Shown here: one piece after another, positions 5,735 through 63,700 of the stretch
How the letters are laid out: each line of letters begins with the position of its first letter
Position numbering within the stretch: position 1 is the first letter of the stretch
DNA from: a virus
Direction: 5' to 3' (one strand)
Virus record (IMG/VR): IMGVR_UViG_3300010430_000003
Span: 64,001-128,000 of that record
Length of the DNA: 64,000 bases
The notes under the pieces: model-generated
The model's input: only the letters and a program-made list of their open reading frames with translations
Database searches by the model: none
Told to the model about the DNA's origin: nothing
Made by a program: the position numbers and the translations under genes

Positions 5735-8577
5735 AGTATACGAAGAGACAATTTAAAAATAAATTCAAAAGTTCTTACTGGCTTAATTTGTATGCATCCA
5801 TTCGCAGCATTGAGAGTAGAACCCCGCTGAAACAAATTCGGTATCGTGGGAAGGCAACAGAAGACAAAGTTTTATTAGCAATTAATAATCTTTATAAACC
5901 ATTAATAACCATGCCTGTTTCAAATAATCAAGTAAGAGTTATTAATGATCAATTATCAAACACACCAAAATTTGAAACAGTTAAGCAAAGAATAGTTGGA
6001 ATTACAGAAGGACCGTCAAGATTTGTTTATGGAGCTTCTGATTTTATTGGTTCTGCTTATCTTTCCTTAACTGGTGGTGTTCTTACTTATGCTGATGGTG
6101 GAGCAGCAACATTTGAAGGAAGTGGAACATTAACTGCCGATGGTGGTAAATTTGTTTATGTTGGAGATAGTGCAACTTTTGAAGGAAGTGGAACATTAAC
6201 TGCTGATGGAGGCAAATTTGTTTATGTGAGTGGTGAAGCAGATATTTTAGGAACTGGCTCTCTTGTTGGAATTGGTGAAACCGTTATTTATGAGAGTAAC
6301 GATGTTTCGTTTGATGGTGCTGCAACAATGCAAGCGCAGGGCACCCAGATATCTACCACAACTGCAATCTTTACTGGAACCTCTGAAATGTCAGTAGACG
6401 GTGTTCCTATTTCTGTTGCTGCTGTTACATTTACCGGAACGAGCGATATGATAGTGGAGGGTGAAGCGTTCACCAACATCCCAACGTTTGTCCACTATGC
6501 TTGGGAAATTGATTTTGGAGTAACTACAAGTTCAAATGGTTATGTTACTCTCTGGGAAGATCAAAAGCAGGGTCTTAATTTTAGTGGAACTGATGGACAT
6601 GGTTATTTTGACTTCAATTATTCAGGGACATATATCCCCGCATTAATTTTTAGCAGATCTACTCATACATTTGATGCAACATTTCCTGATCCTTCTCCAA
6701 TATCTGGAGGATTCTCTTTTCTCGTTGTAGCCGATATTATTAGTGGGTCAGATGATAGTGATGCTTCTAATAATGAGTTTGCTATTTTGCAGCTTGACGA
6801 AGACGTGGGATACGGTTCCTCACAAGCTTGGGCCTTGGATATTGGTGTGAACGCCCCCGGAATCAACTATCGTTTATGGGAGGCTGCAAGTGGTATTGAG
6901 ACATATGATGGCAGATACTATGATCACCATAGACAAGATAGCTTTGTTGATATGCTAGTTAATTCTGCTCCAAGCGGTACATGGTCATCGGAAACAGACT
7001 TATATGTTGAAAGAGAATTATTTATTAATAATAAAGACTTAGATAATTATTATTATCCACATCGTCATGAGTATACAGAAATTAAATTGGGATTAGACGC
7101 TGGCCGAACTGATCGTTCTGCCTATATGGCTGTTAAGGCAGTTTATGCTGCAACTAGCTCATTGGGATCTACTGAGAGAACTGAGTTGTGGGATTATCTT
7201 GATTCTCGATGGAGATCACAATATATAGTGCCCGAAGTTCTTGATATTACAACAACAGGGTCTGCTGCGATAGGAACTCTACACGATGTTCCAATGCCTT
7301 CAACAGTTAATCGATCAGATTTATTGGTGGCAGTTTTTGCTGAAGATGGCGGCCATGATCTTACTGAACCTCTCGGTTGGTACGAAGTTGTTAGCGATGA
7401 ATATGGAGGTGCTGATGCTGGGATGAGTGTATACGCCAGATATGCAACTGGATCTGAAGGAGGCACAACTGTTCAATTCTCTTCAAGTGTGTCGAGGGAT
7501 TATGGTGTGGCAATTGCTCGAATTGCTTCTGGCACATGGCACGAGACTTCTAATTTAGCTGACGCAATTCAAAGTACAGGTATGAGTAGTTCCAATAATT
7601 CTTATGTTTCTGATCCACCACCAATTTCATCATCTTGGATGAGTCATAACTTACCACTAGCTGCAACTGCCGGATCAGCACTAATGAATGGATTTGATAC
7701 TGACGCTGGCTGGGAAGGTGGTGTTACGTCAACGCCTGCTGCGTCAGGAACTTACGTTTCTCTTGAATATTATCCTAGTGGCTCTGCAAGGCATATTACC
7801 GATACCTTGGGTGAGAACTTTTACGGGGTCAACACATCTTTTCAGGCTGCGAGCAACCATCTTGCTGCCATGATAGCTGTGAAACCTCATCCAAGATTCA
7901 GCGATTGGAAAGAACTTTTAGATTGGCATTCAAACAGGGGCGATTTTACAGGAAGTAGTTTGATTCAATTGGTTAAATCTGATGGTTCTACAGTTGCAGA
8001 TGTTTCGGGACAAAGTAATGAGCCAACTATATCAGGAACACTAACATTCGATTCTCAGCCGGTTACGTGGGGAGATAAATATCCAATTGAGTCTGATGCT
8101 TCTGGTGGCGATTATTTACATACAACGGGAATTTTGAACTTGTCAAGCTCGACTTCATGGACTTTTAGTTGTATTGCTGAAAATTCTCCATCACATCCTG
8201 ACGTCTTATTTGGTTTAGGTGATTCCGATTCGAATCAAATTGCGCTTTATAACAACAACGCGGCAGGTGGAACGCTATATCTTAGAGCAAAAGGGGGAAG
8301 CACTGTGTTTGATACAGTGGCGGTTCCCTTTGGTCAGATATTTGGCCTAACCATCAGAAGGGAAGTCGATGATTTAGATTGGTGGGTGGATGGCGTCTTC
8401 CAAGGAACTGTTGATTTAAGTGCCCAAAGTTTTACATCTGCCACAGATCTTTATTATCTTTATGGTATTGTAACTTCTGGACTTCAATGGGATGGAAGAT
8501 TTCAACATCGAGGGACATTTGATGATGCTCTTAGTGATGAACTGTGTGTAAAATTTAGCACCACATCTTATCCATGA
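5731..8577 (+). CDS. Large fibre/adhesin protein with tandem repeats and LamG-like domains
   Basis: 948 residues from ATG 5731, chosen because it forms an ATGA overlap with the preceding stop; an upstream in-frame codon at 5671 would overlap by 64 bases. The basic N-terminus (KRQFKNKFKSSYW) is followed by two near-identical copies of a unit with FEGSGTLTADGGKFVYV at about residues 127-170 and several degenerate copies (FTGTSEMSVDG, FTGTSDMIVEG). The rest is beta-rich and Ser/Gly/Asp-rich, with LamG-like segments near the centre and C-terminus (WWVDGVFQGTV). A tail fibre or spike that binds host surface glycans is the likely role. The repeats could vary in copy number by recombination. Confidence 0.65.
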   Translation: MKYTKRQFKNKFKSSYWLNLYASIRSIESRTPLKQIRYRGKATEDKVLLAINNLYKPLITMPVSNNQVRVINDQLSNTPKFETVKQRIVGITEGPSRFVYGASDFIGSAYLSLTGGVLTYADGGAATFEGSGTLTADGGKFVYVGDSATFEGSGTLTADGGKFVYVSGEADILGTGSLVGIGETVIYESNDVSFDGAATMQAQGTQISTTTAIFTGTSEMSVDGVPISVAAVTFTGTSDMIVEGEAFTNIPTFVHYAWEIDFGVTTSSNGYVTLWEDQKQGLNFSGTDGHGYFDFNYSGTYIPALIFSRSTHTFDATFPDPSPISGGFSFLVVADIISGSDDSDASNNEFAILQLDEDVGYGSSQAWALDIGVNAPGINYRLWEAASGIETYDGRYYDHHRQDSFVDMLVNSAPSGTWSSETDLYVERELFINNKDLDNYYYPHRHEYTEIKLGLDAGRTDRSAYMAVKAVYAATSSLGSTERTELWDYLDSRWRSQYIVPEVLDITTTGSAAIGTLHDVPMPSTVNRSDLLVAVFAEDGGHDLTEPLGWYEVVSDEYGGADAGMSVYARYATGSEGGTTVQFSSSVSRDYGVAIARIASGTWHETSNLADAIQSTGMSSSNNSYVSDPPPISSSWMSHNLPLAATAGSALMNGFDTDAGWEGGVTSTPAASGTYVSLEYYPSGSARHITDTLGENFYGVNTSFQAASNHLAAMIAVKPHPRFSDWKELLDWHSNRGDFTGSSLIQLVKSDGSTVADVSGQSNEPTISGTLTFDSQPVTWGDKYPIESDASGGDYLHTTGILNLSSSTSWTFSCIAENSPSHPDVLFGLGDSDSNQIALYNNNAAGGTLYLRAKGGSTVFDTVAVPFGQIFGLTIRREVDDLDWWVDGVFQGTVDLSAQSFTSATDLYYLYGIVTSGLQWDGRFQHRGTFDDALSDELCVKFSTTSYP

Positions 8578-9203
8578 AAAAGAAAAGTAACATATTGTCT
8601 TCTTATCCAAGGTCCGGAAATACTTGGATTAGGTATTGTATGGAATTTCTGTCAGAGAGGCCAACCAGAGGGTATGGTCGCGTTAATTTAAGAGAGTGCC
8701 CCCTTGGAGAAACTTTCAATTTAGGGGTGGACTTAGAAAAAGATTATATTTTAATAAAAATTCATCTTGCTAACAAATACAGAAAAGATAGAACTAACAC
8801 AGTTATTCATTTAATTAGAGATCCATTATATAGTATTCCAAGACATACTGGTATGACAGATTTAATTGCAAACCGTGGTCCCTCCAAGTTTATCAAAATA
8901 TTGCAAGCATATCATGATTATGAAGGGAAAAAGCAAGTTTTCTATTATGAAGATTTTATGGAAGAAGAGAATCTATATCCTGTGTTGGAAGAGATGTGTG
9001 AGTTATTAGATGTCAATCCATCAAAAATTGAAAAGCTTAAAGAAGAATATAAAGTTCATGTTATTAAGAGTAGAATGTTGTATGATCATGTTAGAAAACG
9101 AGAGCCAGTCTTTAATCCTCAAATAGTTGATAAAGAAAAATGGGTTGAGTATTTTAAGAGTCATGAAGAATTATATGAATTATATTTGAAAAGATACTTT
9201 TGA
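8574..9203 (+). CDS. PAPS-dependent sulfotransferase-like enzyme
   Basis: 209 residues, ATGA-coupled to the fibre gene. The N-terminus SSYPRSGNTWIRY (residues 9-21) is a classic 5'-phosphosulfate-binding loop of sulfotransferases, and VIHLIRDPLYSIPR (about 77-90) fits the 3'-phosphate-binding strand and helix with Arg82 and Ser87. A late YYEDFMEE segment also occurs in this family. Such enzymes move sulfate from PAPS to hydroxyl or amino groups of sugars, lipids or proteins. It is shorter than most cytosolic family members (about 250-300 residues). Lying inside the fibre block, it may sulfate a fibre, a virion glycan or a host surface polymer; the substrate is unknown. Confidence 0.75.
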   Translation: MKKKSNILSSYPRSGNTWIRYCMEFLSERPTRGYGRVNLRECPLGETFNLGVDLEKDYILIKIHLANKYRKDRTNTVIHLIRDPLYSIPRHTGMTDLIANRGPSKFIKILQAYHDYEGKKQVFYYEDFMEEENLYPVLEEMCELLDVNPSKIEKLKEEYKVHVIKSRMLYDHVRKREPVFNPQIVDKEKWVEYFKSHEELYELYLKRYF

Positions 9204-50127: not shown

Positions 50128-50375
50128 ATTTAAACATAATGATAGCAAGAGGTATCATTCATGATAAAACCAAGAACTTGTTGGGCTCCGATCCGTTAAG
50201 CTTTGAACTGAGAACATCGCTGCACACCGCAAGGAGAATAAGAAGTATCAAGGATGGTTGGGAGGTTAGCAACCCTTTTCCTTTATTGATCGCCTTGGAA
50301 GAAATAGATGAAACTGGACTCTTGAAAGTAAGCATAACAACTTTTATTGATAGAAGGCTATATGAAGAAATATAA
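50124..50375 (+). CDS. Micro-protein family member before groEL
   Basis: 83 residues, ATGA start. MNLNIMIARGIIHDKTKNLL carries the M-N-L-N-[IL]-x-I motif. The second half (PFPLLIALEEIDETGLLKVSI) is acidic and hydrophobic. It ends 14 bases into groEL, so the two are co-translated. Unknown function. Confidence 0.5.
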   Translation: MNLNIMIARGIIHDKTKNLLGSDPLSFELRTSLHTARRIRSIKDGWEVSNPFPLLIALEEIDETGLLKVSITTFIDRRLYEEI

Positions 50376-51969
50376 AACAGGAAATGAATTACTATTATCT
50401 CTCTTGGAAGGTTCGAGGAAGCTTGAGGAGAATGTCGCTTGCACTCTTGGACCGAGAGGCAACAATGTCATTTTAAGACCCTTGGGTAGTAATCCAATTA
50501 TCACTAAGGATGGTGTTACTGTTGCTAAGTTCACTGATCTTGAGGATGAGATTGAAGACTTGGCTTGTCAAATTCTTAAACAAGCTTCAATTGAAACAGT
50601 TAAAGAAGCTGGAGACGGAACAACAACCTCCACAGTTTTGGCGAATGCTATATTTACAGAGTCCTCTAAGTATATTCTTAGCGGGGTTACTCCTATCTCT
50701 CTTAAGCGAGGGATGGATAAAGCGGTCCGGAGAATCAATTGCGAGATTGAAAAGAGAGCAACTCCGATATCAACAAAAGAAGATATAAAGAGTATTGCAA
50801 CAATATCATCTAATAACGATGCAGATATTGGTGATTTAATTGCTAATGCTGTGGATGGTATTGGCCGTGATGGTTCTATTGTGGTGGAAGATGGAAAGAG
50901 CACCCAAACAGTTCTTGAGTTTGTTGAAGGTTTAAGGCTACAGGGTGGTTTTCAATCACATCATTTTGCCAATGATAATATTAGAAATGTTGTATCATAC
51001 AAGGATCCTTATTTTCTGATTACAGACCATGTAATTGATGATTTGGAAGAACAACTGCTTCCCGTACTTCAACTTGTACTAAGAGATAAAAAGCCTCTAA
51101 TCATTATTGCTGATGGTTATGGCGAAGAAGTAAGTGCTGCTTGTATCTACAACGCTCTTCAGTCTAGAAAGAATTTGAATAACGCTGTAAAAGTAGCTTG
51201 CTTAAAGGCTCCATCTTTTGGAGAAGAGAGAACTAAGGTTCTTGAGGATGTTGCTATTTCTGTGGGAGCTAAGTTCTTCAGTATGTTTGCTGGTGATAAT
51301 ATTGCTGATGCTAAATTAATTGATTTGGGGGGTGCTGAAAAGCTTGAGGCTAATGGTTACTTCACAACTATTATTGGCGGTATGGGTGAACCAGAAAGGA
51401 TTGAAGAAAGGATTGATGCTCTAAAGGAAGAAATTGATAACGCCCCCGTTAACGAAGGGGCTAGAATTCAAGAAAGAATTACACGGCTTGGCTCTGTTGT
51501 TGCTATCATTAAGGTTGGTGGTCACACTGATGTAGAAGTCGGTGAGATTAAAGATAGAGTTAATGACGCGCTTGAAGCCGTCAATTCAGCTAGGATTGAA
51601 GGGGTGGTAGCAGGAGGAGGTAGCACTCTTCTTAATATTGCTCTTAGGCTCGAAGAAGAAAGATATGAAGAGTCTGATCTCTTTAATGAAGAAGAAAAGA
51701 TAGGGGTGAGAATTTTATTAGAGAGCATTAAGTCTCCGTTTAAAAGAATCGCTCTTAACTCTGGTTTTTCATGGGAGGTTCTAGTAAATAAAGTCAAAGA
51801 GCAAGAAGGAGAAATGGGTGTAGATTTCGTCACAGGAGAGCTTAAAGACTTAAAGGAAGAGGGAATTATTGACCCCGCTAAAGTCACTAGAGTTGCTCTG
51901 CAAAACGCGATATCAGCAGCCTCAACACTTATTACAACAAATAATGCTATTGTCGAAATTCCTCACTAA
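50362..51969 (+). CDS. groEL: Chaperonin GroEL (Hsp60)
   Basis: 535 residues from ATG 50362, behind AGAAGG. The equatorial domain has ACTLGPRGNNVIL, ITKDGVTVAK and EAGDGTTTSTVLA, the ATP site with catalytic aspartate; the apical region contains a GroEL-like SFVEGLRLQGG; near the end HTDVEVGEIKDRVNDAL and GVVAGGGSTLL are the second conserved core. The C-terminal GGM tail is missing. Phage chaperonins (for example in Pseudomonas phage EL) may fold particular virion or replication proteins. No clear GroES neighbours it, but a candidate is at 34493. Confidence 0.95.
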   Translation: MKKYKTGNELLLSLLEGSRKLEENVACTLGPRGNNVILRPLGSNPIITKDGVTVAKFTDLEDEIEDLACQILKQASIETVKEAGDGTTTSTVLANAIFTESSKYILSGVTPISLKRGMDKAVRRINCEIEKRATPISTKEDIKSIATISSNNDADIGDLIANAVDGIGRDGSIVVEDGKSTQTVLEFVEGLRLQGGFQSHHFANDNIRNVVSYKDPYFLITDHVIDDLEEQLLPVLQLVLRDKKPLIIIADGYGEEVSAACIYNALQSRKNLNNAVKVACLKAPSFGEERTKVLEDVAISVGAKFFSMFAGDNIADAKLIDLGGAEKLEANGYFTTIIGGMGEPERIEERIDALKEEIDNAPVNEGARIQERITRLGSVVAIIKVGGHTDVEVGEIKDRVNDALEAVNSARIEGVVAGGGSTLLNIALRLEEERYEESDLFNEEEKIGVRILLESIKSPFKRIALNSGFSWEVLVNKVKEQEGEMGVDFVTGELKDLKEEGIIDPAKVTRVALQNAISAASTLITTNNAIVEIPH

Positions 51970-53991: not shown

Positions 53992-55188
53992 ATGGCAGAC
54001 CAAGTTTTTCATGAAATCTCTTTCTCGGAATTCACTCGCGTAGCACCGTACATTATTGACGCGGGTTATCCAATCATGCTTCGTGGGAAGCATGGAATTG
54101 GAAAATCAGAATTGGTTTATTGGCTTGCAGAACATCACTGCAAGCTTCCAATTGTTGAGCGGCGAGCTAGTCAAATGGATGTGGGTGACCTTGTTGGTCT
54201 ACCCGTTCTTAAAGATGGGAACACTGGCTTTGCTCCACCGGATTGGTTGGCACGAGCATGTAATGAGCCTGTTGCCCTTTTCCTTGACGAAGTGGATCGT
54301 GCTACATTGGAAGTAGCACAAGGTATTTTCGAACTTTGTGATTCTCGGAAGATCTACGGTAACACACTTCACCCCGGAACTAAGGTCTTTGCTGCTGTTA
54401 ACGGCGGCGCTTCTGGTTCACAATATCAAGTGCGCGAGATGGATCCTGCTGAGCTAGACCGGTGGTCAGTATTTGATGTTCGTCCATCTGTGGATGATTG
54501 GCTTGAGTGGGCTTCCAATTATGGAAAGGTTGAGAACATTGTTCTTGAGTTCCTTGCTGGTAATCGGGAGCATCTTGAGAATATCAACGAACATGACGCA
54601 AGCATTGTTTATCCCTCCCGTCGTTCTTGGGTGCGATTTGATCGCGTGCTTAAGCAGATTAATGATTCCGGGGGTGATTTCTATACCTTCAAGGGTTTGG
54701 AAAACATTGGATCATCCATCATTGGTCTTTCCGCTGCGGTAGCGTTCGGTGAGTTTGTTCGAACTTACAATACTGCTGTTACTTTCGAGGATGTCCTTAA
54801 AGGTAATAAAAAGAAGAAGTGGAAAGACTTGGATTTCGAGCAATACAACATGATTGGTCGTTACCTGAAACATCAAGCTCCGGAAAGCCCTGACTACTGG
54901 CGCACAAACGAAGTCGAACAACCAGAACCAACCTCCAGCGAAATGAACAATGTTCGTGAATTCCTGTTGGAGTGTCCTGACGAAATCCTGATTAACGTGA
55001 CGCGCCTCGCTCACCCAATGGTTTCATCAACCCTCACCTCTCCTCCCCGTACTCTTCGAAACAAAAAGCGCAAGAGTGCTAAGGACAAGAAATCTCTCAA
55101 GCTCATGGAGAGCCTTAAGACCAAAATGCGAGAGGCTTCTGTGTATATGGCCAATAAGGCTGACGAAGAAAAGGCTGAAAAAGAATAA
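53992..55188 (+). CDS. MoxR-type AAA+ ATPase, copy 2
   Basis: 398 residues. Walker A GKHGIGKS (32-39), SQMDVGDLVGLPVL as in MoxR proteins that sense substrate, Walker B ALFLDEVDRA (about 95-104), sensor-1 VFAAVNGGA, and MDPAELDRWSVFDVRP for the arginine region. The C-terminal 60 residues are basic and coiled-coil-like. It lacks the long insert of copy 1. Its VWA partner begins at 56291, separated by RNA genes and three small proteins. This is the better conserved of the two copies. Confidence 0.88.
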   Translation: MADQVFHEISFSEFTRVAPYIIDAGYPIMLRGKHGIGKSELVYWLAEHHCKLPIVERRASQMDVGDLVGLPVLKDGNTGFAPPDWLARACNEPVALFLDEVDRATLEVAQGIFELCDSRKIYGNTLHPGTKVFAAVNGGASGSQYQVREMDPAELDRWSVFDVRPSVDDWLEWASNYGKVENIVLEFLAGNREHLENINEHDASIVYPSRRSWVRFDRVLKQINDSGGDFYTFKGLENIGSSIIGLSAAVAFGEFVRTYNTAVTFEDVLKGNKKKKWKDLDFEQYNMIGRYLKHQAPESPDYWRTNEVEQPEPTSSEMNNVREFLLECPDEILINVTRLAHPMVSSTLTSPPRTLRNKKRKSAKDKKSLKLMESLKTKMREASVYMANKADEEKAEKE

Positions 55189-55689: not shown

Positions 55690-55694
55690 TCTTT

Positions 55695-55766
55695 TCGGAG
55701 ATCGTCTAACTGGCAAGACACAGGACTTTGAATCCTGCAATCTAGGTTCGAACCCTAGTCTCCGAA
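55695..55766 (+). tRNA. tRNA-Gln (anticodon TTG)
   Basis: A full cloverleaf: acceptor TCGGAGA/TCTCCGA (55695-55701/55759-55765), D arm GTCT/AGAC with GG in the loop, anticodon stem CAGGA/TCCTG with loop CTTTGAA giving anticodon TTG, T arm CTAGG-TTCGAAC-CCTAG, discriminator A. CCA is not encoded. It reads CAA (and CAG by wobble) codons, which are common in this AT-rich phage. Confidence 0.93.
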
Positions 55767-55767
55767 T

Positions 55768-56290: not shown

Positions 56291-57778
56291 GTGAATAAAC
56301 CAGACGGTATTTCTAAAGAAGAATTCTTCAAGGAATTGGATAAGCTTGTTGAACTCGATAAGAAGGCTAAAAAGTATAGTCTTTCTAGAGATGTTCTTGC
56401 ATTGCTTAAGGATGAACCATTCTTTGCATGCGTATCTCGCTTTGTTACAAAAAGGCGAACAACCCAAATTCCAACTGCGGCGATTTATATCGACAAGAAG
56501 ACATTTCGCCCCGTGATGATTTACAACCCTCGCTTTATGGTTTCTTTGCCGATGGAACAACGCAAGGGAATTATTAAACATGAGTATTATCATCTGATTC
56601 TGAACCACATCACCCAGAATCGGATGGACTTCAATAAGAAGAACCAGAAGCTTTGGAATGTTGCAATGGATCTTGCAATCAACTCCTTTCTTATGGAAGA
56701 ACTCCCAGACTTTGCTCTATTTCCAACTAAGGGGATGTTTAAAGACATGCCAGCAGAGAAATCTTCTGAATGGTATAAACAAGCAATCCTTAACGACGAG
56801 GACGTGCTTGAGCAGTTAGGTTTAGATGAAAACGGTGAACCAAAGCCTTGTCCTAACTGTGGCGGGTCAGGTAATGTCTCATCTGATGAAGATGGTGAGC
56901 AACAAGGCCAAGGTAATGGTGGGGAGGAAGGACAAGAAGGACAAAGTCAAGGTGGGCATAGTCACGGTGATAGTGATCAAGAGTGTGACTGTGACAGTGG
57001 GCAGTGTTCTCATAACCCCGGAGAAGGTGGTGGAGGGGGAGGTAATGTAAAGCCATGCCCTTGTTGTAATAATCATGGCATTGATGATCATTCTTTGTGG
57101 GATGATTTGTCGGAAGAAGAAAGAAACATTGTAGAGAAAAAGATGCGGCGAGTTCTTTCTGATGCTGTCCATGAAGCAAAGCGGCAAAATAACTCCAAGG
57201 GTTGGGGTACTGTTTCTGTTCATGTTCAAGGGTATCTTGAAAAGCTTCTTAAGAATAGCCTTAATTGGAAAGGCATTCTGCGAATGTTTGTTCAAGCTTC
57301 TATCAAGGCTGAACGGTATTCTACCATTAAGAAAGTTAACAAGAGGTATCCATGGCTCCATCCGGGTAAGGCTCGTCGAAGGACAGCTAATATTGCTGTG
57401 GCTATTGATCAGTCAGGTTCAGTTGGTAATGTTCTCCTAACTAAGTTCTTTGCGGAATTGAACGCTCTAAGCAAAATTGTAACCTTTACTGTGATTCCTT
57501 TTGATCATGAGGTCTTTGAAGAAAAGGTCTATAAGTGGCAAAAAGGGCAAAAGTTTGAACCTCACAGGGTATTGTGTGGAGGTACTGATTTCTCTGCACC
57601 AACTAGGTATGCTAATGAAAACGGTCCGTTTGATGGTTTGATTATGCTTACCGATATGGAAGCCCCTGAACCTATTCCTGCTCGAATGCAGCGAATCTGG
57701 GTAACTTCTGAATCCTGTGCACGTAGTATGTACTACAAGCCCACCTCTGAAAGAGTTCTAGTGATTCCTGATGAGTGA
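56291..57778 (+). CDS. DUF2201-type metallopeptidase-like plus VWA protein, copy 2
   Basis: 495 residues from GTG 56291, behind AAGGA. IIKHEYYHLILNH (residues 94-106) has a HExxH-type motif; about 180-260 is a Gly/Gln/Asp/His-rich disordered segment with CPNCGGSG and CPCC clusters, which may bind zinc; the C-terminus is a VWA domain with MIDAS VAIDQSGSVG (about 370-379) and GLIMLTDMEAPEP. Partner of the MoxR ATPase at 53992. Compared with copy 1 it has two extra cysteine clusters, suggesting a different target. Confidence 0.85.
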   Translation: MNKPDGISKEEFFKELDKLVELDKKAKKYSLSRDVLALLKDEPFFACVSRFVTKRRTTQIPTAAIYIDKKTFRPVMIYNPRFMVSLPMEQRKGIIKHEYYHLILNHITQNRMDFNKKNQKLWNVAMDLAINSFLMEELPDFALFPTKGMFKDMPAEKSSEWYKQAILNDEDVLEQLGLDENGEPKPCPNCGGSGNVSSDEDGEQQGQGNGGEEGQEGQSQGGHSHGDSDQECDCDSGQCSHNPGEGGGGGGNVKPCPCCNNHGIDDHSLWDDLSEEERNIVEKKMRRVLSDAVHEAKRQNNSKGWGTVSVHVQGYLEKLLKNSLNWKGILRMFVQASIKAERYSTIKKVNKRYPWLHPGKARRRTANIAVAIDQSGSVGNVLLTKFFAELNALSKIVTFTVIPFDHEVFEEKVYKWQKGQKFEPHRVLCGGTDFSAPTRYANENGPFDGLIMLTDMEAPEPIPARMQRIWVTSESCARSMYYKPTSERVLVIPDE

Positions 57779-60805: not shown

Positions 60806-61008
60806 TGGATTCGTATATTAATATATTGATTCATTATCGTTTTTATGGAGACCTCCCAATGATACCTGAATTGCTGTATCAAAACTTTGAAATGGAACAA
60901 TATTCATCATCTATGTCTTCCTTTAATGAAAGCGAATATAAAGAAGACAACATATATTATGATTATGATCTTAACGGTTTAACTACATTACTGGAGACCA
61001 ATGCCTAG
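60805..61008 (+). CDS. Micro-protein family member
   Basis: 67 residues from ATG 60805, behind GGAG. MDSYINILIHYRFYGDLPMI carries the I-N-I-L-I motif. The second half is Ser/Glu/Tyr rich (SSSMSSFNESEYKED). Unknown function. Confidence 0.5.
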   Translation: MDSYINILIHYRFYGDLPMIPELLYQNFEMEQYSSSMSSFNESEYKEDNIYYDYDLNGLTTLLETNA

Positions 61009-61582
61009 TCATTCATTTTGGTACACTGATACCAATGTTATTAAGAAAATATATGAGGTTTTTAACTATATTACTATCGATCCAACAACCTCCCCGGAAG
61101 CCAACAAGCGTGTCCGTGCTGAGTTCGTTTACACGATCGATGACTCATGCCTGACGACCCCGAAATGGCTTCCTGACGCCCCTGACGGCGCTGTGACGTG
61201 CTATATGAACCCCCCTTATTCTAAGGACTGTGATGGTACAAAACCCTATGTGGTTAAGCTATTAGAACAGCTAGATAAAGGTGTTGTTAACGCAGCTATC
61301 GTGCTTGTTAATTCATCTACTTCTTCAAGCTGGTTCCAGCTTTTAATGAAAAACAGTGAGCTTGTTTGTTTTCCATCAAAAAGGTTGTGTTTTGATGAAG
61401 ACCTTGATTACGTCAAGAAATATGTTGATCCCGAAGAGCCAGGGCATGGGCTAAAGACTGGCAAAGCTCCGAGATATGATAATGCTGTTTTTCTCTTAAT
61501 AAGTGACAGTTCATACAGTCATTATGCAGAGAACTTTATTGATTCTTTCTCCTCAATGGGTAGTGTATTAAAATTGGTATGA
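61001..61582 (+). CDS. Phage DNA N6-adenine methyltransferase (Dam-like)
   Basis: 193 residues. SHSFWYTDTNVIKKIYEVF at the start, then TCYMNPPYSKD with the catalytic NPPYS (residues 70-74), and a late GKAPRYDNAVFLL are the parts of the small phage adenine methyltransferase family, in which the N-terminal FxGG motif is displaced. It methylates the N6 of adenine in DNA, which can protect the phage from host restriction. A 120-base patch near 61081-61200 is much richer in G and C than its surroundings. Confidence 0.75.
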   Translation: MPSHSFWYTDTNVIKKIYEVFNYITIDPTTSPEANKRVRAEFVYTIDDSCLTTPKWLPDAPDGAVTCYMNPPYSKDCDGTKPYVVKLLEQLDKGVVNAAIVLVNSSTSSSWFQLLMKNSELVCFPSKRLCFDEDLDYVKKYVDPEEPGHGLKTGKAPRYDNAVFLLISDSSYSHYAENFIDSFSSMGSVLKLV

Positions 61583-61791
61583 ACTCTTCTACTATAAATA
61601 AATGGGTTGTAGAACGGTATGCTTCGTCATACACTTTTTGGCATGGCGCTATAATTGAAACAAACAAATTCACAAGTAGGGGCACTCGCACGAAAATTCG
61701 ATTTATTCAGATAGATGGAGAGTTGCGATATAAAGTTCTGAAGGCGTGGCTATCTTTATACAATCTTGTTGATGATAAATACAGAGATTAA
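61579..61791 (+). CDS. Micro-protein family member
   Basis: 70 residues; ATGA start. NSSTINKWVVERYASSYTFWHG carries I-N-x-[WL]-V and an aromatic stretch; the rest is basic/beta. It overlaps the next gene by 20 bases. Unknown. Confidence 0.5.
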   Translation: MNSSTINKWVVERYASSYTFWHGAIIETNKFTSRGTRTKIRFIQIDGELRYKVLKAWLSLYNLVDDKYRD

Positions 61792-61966
61792 TAGATTAAT
61801 AGTAGATAATTTGATTTGTGAATTATCAGGTTCGTGGAAAGTGTATGGATTTTGTAAATATAGTCGATTAACTTACACACAAATATTGGAGATACCATAC
61901 CCATACGTTATTATACATATTGGCAACATGAGAGAACTATATGAAAGACATGCTCATAACCGGTAG
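61772..61966 (+). CDS. Micro-protein family member
   Basis: 64 residues from ATG 61772. [20 protein letters not shown] holds E-I-N-x-L-I. The second half has [20 protein letters not shown]. It overlaps the dehydrogenase gene by 26 bases. Unknown. Confidence 0.5.
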
Positions 61967-62657
61967 CACCAAAGGTATTGGTTTAGCTACTGCAAAATTG
62001 TTTAATGAACAAGGTTATAAAGTCACTGTGATTGGCAGAGAAATCCAGTCAGTAGATAAAACTGTCTTTGCAAACCCACAACATGTAAAATACATTCAAG
62101 TTAACTTCTTAAAAGAAGACCAAGTAAAAACCTTCATTGATTGGGTATCAAAACAAGATTTTGATGTTATAGTTAATAACGCGGCAATCAATGCAGTATC
62201 TAACGTATCGGATAAGAGCTTTATAGCTGAGTCTGAAGCTATCATGAAAGTTAACTATCAAATACCGTTAAGAATTTTGAATGCTTGTTCATATAAAGAC
62301 GATATGAAGATTGTTAATATATCTTCCATATCCGGGATTTTAGGTTTAGCAGGTAGAACGAACTATTGTGCATCTAAGCACGCGCTCAACGCCTTAACTA
62401 AAACCCTCGCTCTGGAGCATCCAGAGATATGTATAAACTCTGTTTGTCCAGGTGTAATTGAAACTAAGCTTACAAAACAAATCTTGAAAGAAGAGGACAT
62501 TGAAAATATAATAAAACAGATCCCGAAAGGGAGATTAGGTACTCCAAAAGAAGTGGCTAACTTAGTATACTTTCTATGTTCTGATATGAATACATATATA
62601 ACTGGGCAGAATATTATTATTGATGGTGGTTTAACTTCTACTTGGTGGAATCAATGA
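61941..62657 (+). CDS. Short-chain dehydrogenase/reductase
   Basis: 238 residues. TGSTKGIG (7-14) is the nucleotide-binding loop, NNAA the second structural motif, SSISG holds the catalytic Ser and Tyr142-x3-Lys146 (YCASK) the catalytic pair, and IDGG at the end is usual. It is similar in length to FabG-like NAD(P)-dependent reductases. The next gene overlaps as ATGA and is a sugar-phosphate cyclase, so the reductase may act on a cyclic sugar. Other substrates are possible. Confidence 0.85.
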
Positions 62658-63700
62658 ATTTTACTATTGAATATATTTCATCAAATTATCACTCTTATCA
62701 AAACTTAAACATAAGATATGATTATATCTTCTACGATAAAAATTTATCTCGCTCTAGTCTTACTCGAAAAGCAATTCCGATTGACGCTGGAGAAAGTCTT
62801 AAGGCTTGGGAAGGTGTGTCTGACATAATTAATACCTTTCAAAGCCTCGGCATCACTAGACAAGACAGAGTTTTAGTTATTGGTGGTGGAACAATGCAAG
62901 ATGCATTTGGTTTTGTGTGTTCAATTTATAGTCGTGGGGTAGGATGGTCCTACCTCCCCACTACACTAGGCGCTATGTGCGATAGTTGTATTGGTGGTAA
63001 AACCTCTATCAACGTTGGGGGGTCTAAGAACATTGTTGGGACATTTTCAGACCCCGAAAAGATCTATATTGATTTCTCTTGGCTTATGACAGCGAGCAAG
63101 AATTCTATCTTGTCAGGTCTTGGGGAAATGAATCATATTTTTGCAGTTGCGCAGCGATATGATTTAATGATTAAGCTAGAAAAAGAGTATAAGAAAGATA
63201 CTCCCAACTGGTCGCACTTAGTTAGAGCGTGCTTGGAAATCAAGTCTTCTTTCATTGAGGAGGATAAGTTTGATAAAGGGAAGAGACTCCTTCTTAATTA
63301 CGGTCATACTTTTGGCCATGCGTTGGAGTCTGCCGCTTTCACACCCCATGGCATTGCTGTAGCTTGGGGTGCTATGCTTTCTAATAGATTAAGTTATGAA
63401 AGTGGTTTGATGTCAGAAGAATTAACTAATTATTTAAACAACAGGTTTCAATGGATTGTTTCTGAAGCAGAAGCCCAGCAACTTGAGTGGGCAGATGTCC
63501 AAGAGGATTTCTTTGAATCTTTGTTGAAAGATAAAAAGAATAAAAAAGGAGCAAAAGGTAAAACCAAAATTGGTTGCATCTTGATGAAAGAAGGGCAGGC
63601 TGTCCTAGATCATATTTACTTCGAAAACCTCAAAGGGAGAATTAACAATGTTTGTTCCAACTGGGAAGATTCTAACACCACTGACTCGGAAAACGGATAA
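62654..63700 (+). CDS. Dehydroquinate-synthase-like sugar-phosphate cyclase
   Basis: 348 residues from ATG 62654. GGGTMQD (77-83) is the NAD loop, [20 protein letters not shown] (about 101-120) contains the substrate-binding region, KNIVGTF follows, and [13 protein letters not shown] (about 214-226) gives metal-binding histidines. The family includes AroB and the cyclases for 2-deoxy-scyllo-inosose and 2-epi-5-epi-valiolone; substrate-specific residues cannot be called by eye. Together with the reductase upstream a small cyclitol pathway is suggested. A phage-encoded shikimate step alone would be odd. Confidence 0.82.

Follow-up and report, generated by a model that had tools for sequence, protein, structure and literature searches.

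A detached reductase–cyclase gene pair in a large T4-like virus probably belongs to a cyclitol-type glycan pathway

We report that a large T4-like virus of bacteria probably builds an unusual ring-shaped sugar. Two overlapping genes, encoding an SDR-family reductase and a DHQ-synthase-fold sugar-phosphate cyclase, form in our reading (probability about 0.6) the detached portion of a glycan pathway of the phage; this pathway would make a carbocyclic, cyclitol-type building block, one that is probably CMP-activated.

Results

An intact reductase–cyclase pair in a phage genome

The stretch of DNA analysed here (the window, 64,000 nt) corresponds to bases 64001–128000 of the 210,326-base virus record IMGVR_UViG_3300010430_000003. 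Genes for a Gp23 capsid protein of the T4 type and for a terminase on the same record confirm the phage setting; the closest match of the terminase among phage records is to Flavobacterium phages (36.5% identity), and the source of the pair is a large T4-like virus of bacteria. Other genes of this T4-like phage include a Cpn60/TCP-1 family chaperonin (window 50365–51969, Pfam 1.4e-56), a MoxR-VWA-like pair formed by an AAA_5 ATPase (window 53992–55188) and a DUF2201 metallopeptidase/VWA protein (window 56291–57778), a tRNA-Gln (TTG) gene at window 55694–55767 and, close upstream of the reductase–cyclase pair, a Dam-type DNA adenine methyltransferase (window 61001–61582, Pfam 7e-12). An adenylosuccinate synthetase (record 191010–192098, Pfam 3.7e-76) contains GDEGK and appears by eye PurA-like, not PurZ-like, and two mutually similar proteins starting with SYPRSGNTW (record 61561–62217 and window 8574–9203) look sulfotransferase-like by eye.

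The reductase (238 aa, window 61941–62657, plus strand) matches Pfam adh_short_C2 at 4.2e-44 as well as FabG-like structures in the PDB, and contains a TGSTKGIG motif together with catalytic S129, Y142 and K146, as expected of a classical SDR (TGxxxGIG and a catalytic Ser-Tyr-Lys). The cyclase gene (window 62654–63700, plus strand) encodes a TIGR04425-related protein of 348 aa with matches to Pfam DHQ_synthase (1.1e-31) and DHQS_C (3.3e-24). Its start is likely the ATG at 62654; the TTG start proposed by the ORF finder, giving 352 aa, is a less likely one. Stop and start codons of the two genes overlap as ATGA (62654–62657, plus strand), an arrangement in keeping with the adjacency of reductase and cyclase in relatives, and the two genes may be translationally coupled through it.

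The cyclase motifs GGG-x3-D, GGKT and KN are all intact. Its predicted Zn ligands are E158 (codon 63125–63127, plus strand), invariant in all rows of our alignment, and H218 and H232, which flank the catalytic H222 (63305–63349, plus strand). A preliminary description of this DNA had listed intact catalytic residues in the reductase, intact NAD and metal motifs in the cyclase and the ATGA overlap, all of which we recovered. When the cyclase was modelled with AlphaFold (pLDDT 89, pTM 0.89), the top Foldseek matches were AroB crystal structures (best E 7.5e-21, TM 0.79), with structures of DOIS, DDGS and ValA ranking closely after them, while no BFVD viral structure matched the model at E 0.001. 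The GC3 of the pair differs from the mean of the genome by roughly one standard deviation at most and gives no sign of foreign origin, and scans for promoters, terminators and repeats around the pair returned nothing beyond chance. Both genes are real and intact.

The cyclase falls in a TIGR04425-related clade

The top NCBIfam match of the cyclase is TIGR04425, a hypothetical equivalog of that database named "AroB-related putative sugar phosphate phospholyase, cyclizing". The score of 269.7 bits is below the 400-bit cut-off of that family, and the 220.9 bits obtained with aroB (TIGR01357) fall far short of its 305-bit cut-off; the 48.8-bit advantage of TIGR04425 is not decisive alone, because a Pseudoalteromonas AroB reaches 258.7 bits with the same profile. 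Scanning 198 + 299 bacterial genomes, from the phyla of one Porphyromonas and one Pseudoalteromonas record, yielded nine TIGR04425 members above the cut-off, to which the phage cyclase is 28–39% identical. A search of viral contigs with the single cyclase sequence found no match, and a profile built from the nine bacterial members and the phage cyclase found relatives in 83 viral contigs. Among 50,697 phage records, none of the cyclase matches resembled the TIGR04425-type clade; the INPHARED matches, two faecal 'Bacteriophage sp.' records among them, were AroB-like and are probably for the most part contigs of bacteria deposited as phage. Matches in genome contigs were host AroB-like genes, which served as controls.

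We placed the cyclase in a quick tree of 91 rows, the only one to include DOIS, EEVS and DDGS/EVS, and in a careful tree of 55 rows. It lies within the TIGR04425 clade in both, apart from AroB and aDHQS, with support in the careful tree of 100/99 (bootstrap/SH-aLRT) for the clade including the phage sequence and of 100/98 for a subclade of 14 rows to which it belongs. BtrC (DOIS), ValA (EEVS) and the Anabaena DDGS/EVS fall outside the clade in the 91-row tree. The aDHQS of locus L152 groups with AroB, so the phage cyclase does not group with aDHQS, and aminoDAHP-type genes were not seen near the pair. Judged by the best tree, the cyclase is no plain AroB.

This placement bears on the alternative that the gene encodes a diverged phage AroB, which would convert DAHP to 3-dehydroquinate and boost the host supply of aromatic amino acids or folate, the reductase being a chance neighbour. 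Such a role would fit the Foldseek ranking and the retention of all AroB catalytic residues but one, and the long branch of the cyclase (1.8) leaves an AU p of 0.067 for a grouping with AroB, which is marginal and no formal rejection. Nevertheless, the supported position in the TIGR04425 clade, the low aroB score, the diagnostic residues and reductase neighbour described below and the lack of any DAHP synthase match in the record speak against it, and we consider a diverged AroB unlikely. A firm grouping within host AroB was the outcome that the preliminary description had set against its own proposal; the best tree places the cyclase elsewhere, although with an AU p of only that marginal size.

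An AroB-like pocket with clade-type diagnostic residues

The phage cyclase shares with the TIGR04425 clade the signature residues W98, C112, I113, S118, G157 and D207, and in the seven alignment columns that separate this clade from AroB it is clade-type in six and AroB-type in none. Every AroB catalytic position is kept except one, at which Lys is replaced by His: residue 161 (codon 63134–63136, plus strand), three residues past the metal ligand E158, is Lys in all 10 AroB rows of the alignment, and His at this position marks an H-type subgroup.

For the pocket comparison, DOIS references were verified against 2d2x and those for EEVS/DDGS against 5tpr and 4p53; the BtrC and Ava_3858 sequences were matched letter by letter to PDB rows, and the ValA row was taken from PDB search output. 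The DOIS-type Gly and Glu are missing from the phage cyclase, which has R211 and N215 there, as are the EEVS/EVS-type Met, Asp/Ala and Pro, where it has K197, N215 and H222. At the positions where DOIS and EEVS/DDGS depart from the phage cyclase, the latter is AroB-like. The pocket is almost wholly of the AroB kind, which counts against our reading in that DAHP or a DAHP-like acid is a possible substrate.

The pocket residues also speak to the possibility that the cyclase makes a known cyclitol precursor, either 2-deoxy-scyllo-inosose from glucose-6-phosphate or a valiolone- or gadusol-type ring from sedoheptulose-7-phosphate, in a pathway modelled on those of aminoglycosides or C7-cyclitols. 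The superfamily is common to all these enzymes, and transketolase-like halves together with a GmhA-like SIS protein in the genome could provide sedoheptulose-7-phosphate; however, the marker residues are missing, the clade does not include BtrC, ValA or the Anabaena DDGS/EVS, and the transketolase pair travels with RmlD/RfbH-like genes, occurring in only 5–6 of the 35 viral loci with His-161. We likewise rejected transketolase as a sure sign of sedoheptulose-7-phosphate on account of these travelling companions. A precursor of this known kind is improbable, and the rings named in the preliminary description, deoxy-scyllo-inosose and epi-valiolone, find no support in the same AroB-like pocket.

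Reductase and partner genes among relatives

Of 80 viral loci, 73 have a reductase gene whose end is at most 60 nt from the cyclase ORF start, compared with 0 of 37 AroB control loci, and a reductase gene lies directly upstream of the cyclase in eight of the nine bacterial TIGR04425 members, in three of which a SIS gene precedes it. The reductase–cyclase pair is a conserved unit. In its own tree, the phage reductase is placed with weak support, and its branch is also long.

The viral TIGR04425-related cyclases (loci L061–L140) fall into two types by residue 161, each with different partner genes. This split covers 75 viral relatives, 35 with His and 40 with Lys. His-161 loci frequently contain a CMP-transferase (31/35, versus 3/40 of the Lys-161 loci), a SIS gene (29/35 versus 2/40), a class-III aminotransferase (25/35 versus 0/40) and a family typed as GT29-like (20/35 versus 0/40), whereas Lys-161 loci have a ThDP enzyme (33/40) and an HpcH/HpaI-type aldolase (20/40). 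The phage cyclase has His-161, and its own record holds aminotransferase, CMP-transferase, SIS and GT29-like genes.

NeuB is the usual partner of PseF/NeuA-like CMP-transferases. It was found in one of 30 such phage records, many of them fragments; of the nine bacterial genomes, three have it at a distance of 12–22 kb from the cyclase. Because NeuB is so rare in these phage records and an AroB-type pocket suits an acid substrate, we put forward, as an unlikely reading, that H-type cyclases replace NeuB, with the CMP-transferase and the GT29-like transferase acting on a carbocyclic acid made by the cyclase. As a carba-analogue of an ulosonic acid, this quinate-like ring would lead to a CMP-activated carbasugar and to new glycan chemistry.

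A distant glycan cluster on the same record

A glycan gene cluster is located at 195.2–208.1 kb of the record, about 70 kb from the reductase–cyclase pair. It begins with the N and C parts of a transketolase-like enzyme, an RmlD-like protein, an RfbH-like aminotransferase-fold protein and a protein that is thioredoxin-like by eye, continues with a GDP-mannose-dehydratase-like epimerase, a GT29-like protein, a PseF-like cytidylyltransferase with a cupin domain and a class-III aminotransferase, and ends with a GT29 protein, a GmhA-like SIS protein, a GDP-fucose-synthase-like protein and a GDP-mannose 4,6-dehydratase. A further protein (record 209166–209882), sigma-factor-like by eye, is kept directly after the glycan cluster in contigs L080, L089, L099 and L103, at 49–51% identity.

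The cluster is collinear with four related contigs (L080, L089, L101 and L138), in which reductase and cyclase are located between the cytidylyltransferase and aminotransferase genes. At the same spot in the phage, the two genes are separated by no more than a 360-base gap with one 65-aa ORF that has no match in the relatives. Since the cluster has this gap and the whole record contains one cyclase only, the pair has either moved out or given way to a copy at another site. Of these two, the tree points, not decisively, towards replacement by a copy from a subclade other than that of L080, rather than a move (AU p 0.066 for grouping with the L080-type subclade, no formal rejection). What ties the pair to the cluster is comparison with related phage sequences, not adjacency.

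The separation raises the question of whether the pair is a decaying or repurposed remnant, the cluster now functioning in its absence or using an enzyme of the host. Besides the detachment itself, the long branches of both proteins would agree with such a history; yet both frames are open and overlapping, the catalytic residues are intact, the structural model is confident and GC3 is unremarkable, as set out above, which makes a remnant very unlikely. We looked through the record for flippase- or polymerase-like proteins by crude hydropathy and saw no large one with multiple membrane spans, so that the glycan may be exported by the host or placed on virion proteins.

Discussion

We propose that the reductase–cyclase pair acts in the glycan pathway of the distant cluster. 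AroB closes a carbocycle by oxidation, phosphate elimination and re-reduction of its substrate, and by analogy the phage cyclase would use NAD+ to oxidise a hydroxyl of a sugar 7-phosphate, eliminate the phosphate and re-reduce the ketone, whereupon the ring would open and an internal aldol step close the carbocycle. The reductase would then reduce or epimerise a ketone adjacent to the cyclase product. In the order that we suggest, the GmhA-like SIS isomerase would supply the substrate, the class-III aminotransferase would aminate the product, the PseF/NeuA-like cytidylyltransferase with its cupin domain would activate it with CMP and the GT29-like enzymes would transfer it, with the remaining cluster enzymes making other sugars. 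The end product would be a cyclitol-type residue of a glycan that decorates either the virion or the envelope of the host.

Part of the preliminary description survives in this proposal: a phage cyclitol pathway, taken as a glycan pathway, is plausible and fits the rest of the genome, the non-AroB tree position and the conserved pair, but not with the products then named. Its further suggestions, that a cyclitol might modify DNA or enter a toxin, find no support in any neighbour gene.

The phage cyclase resembles TIGR04425 proteins in its clade, its signature residues, the adjacent reductase and neighbours of surface-sugar type, and it differs from the bona fide members in its sub-threshold score and modest identity, in being phage-borne and in being detached from the glycan cluster. 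It shares with AroB the fold and nearly all catalytic residues, but has His at 161, other diagnostic residues, a reductase partner and no shikimate context. With DOIS (BtrC), EEVS (ValA) and DDGS/EVS (Ava_3858) it has the superfamily and the predicted chemistry in common, and it differs from them in pocket residues and tree position.

Uncharacterised sugar phosphate cyclases mislabelled as AroB in databases have a precedent in the EboD clade (PMC5133447), although the EboD operon, unlike the phage pair, includes a prenyltransferase and a xylose isomerase-like gene (PMC5133447); the trees presented here are without EboD sequences. Sugar-biosynthesis genes are otherwise on record in phages: excerpts of the respective papers report LPS-type genes in pelagimyophages (PMC7029224) and prophage epaA/epaB genes that alter capsule pseudaminic acid (PMC12053666), and describe no cyclase. 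In the literature on TIGR04425, phage cyclitols and carbasugars, our search turned up no mention of the reductase–cyclase pair.

With these results, what is labelled 'AroB' in phages is reassigned to a cyclase clade that is uncharacterised and occurs commonly among uncultured T4-like phages. A single active-site residue and the neighbouring genes divide this TIGR04425-related clade in two. The identity of the ring bears on whether carbocyclic sugars are used by phages to decorate their own surface or that of the host.
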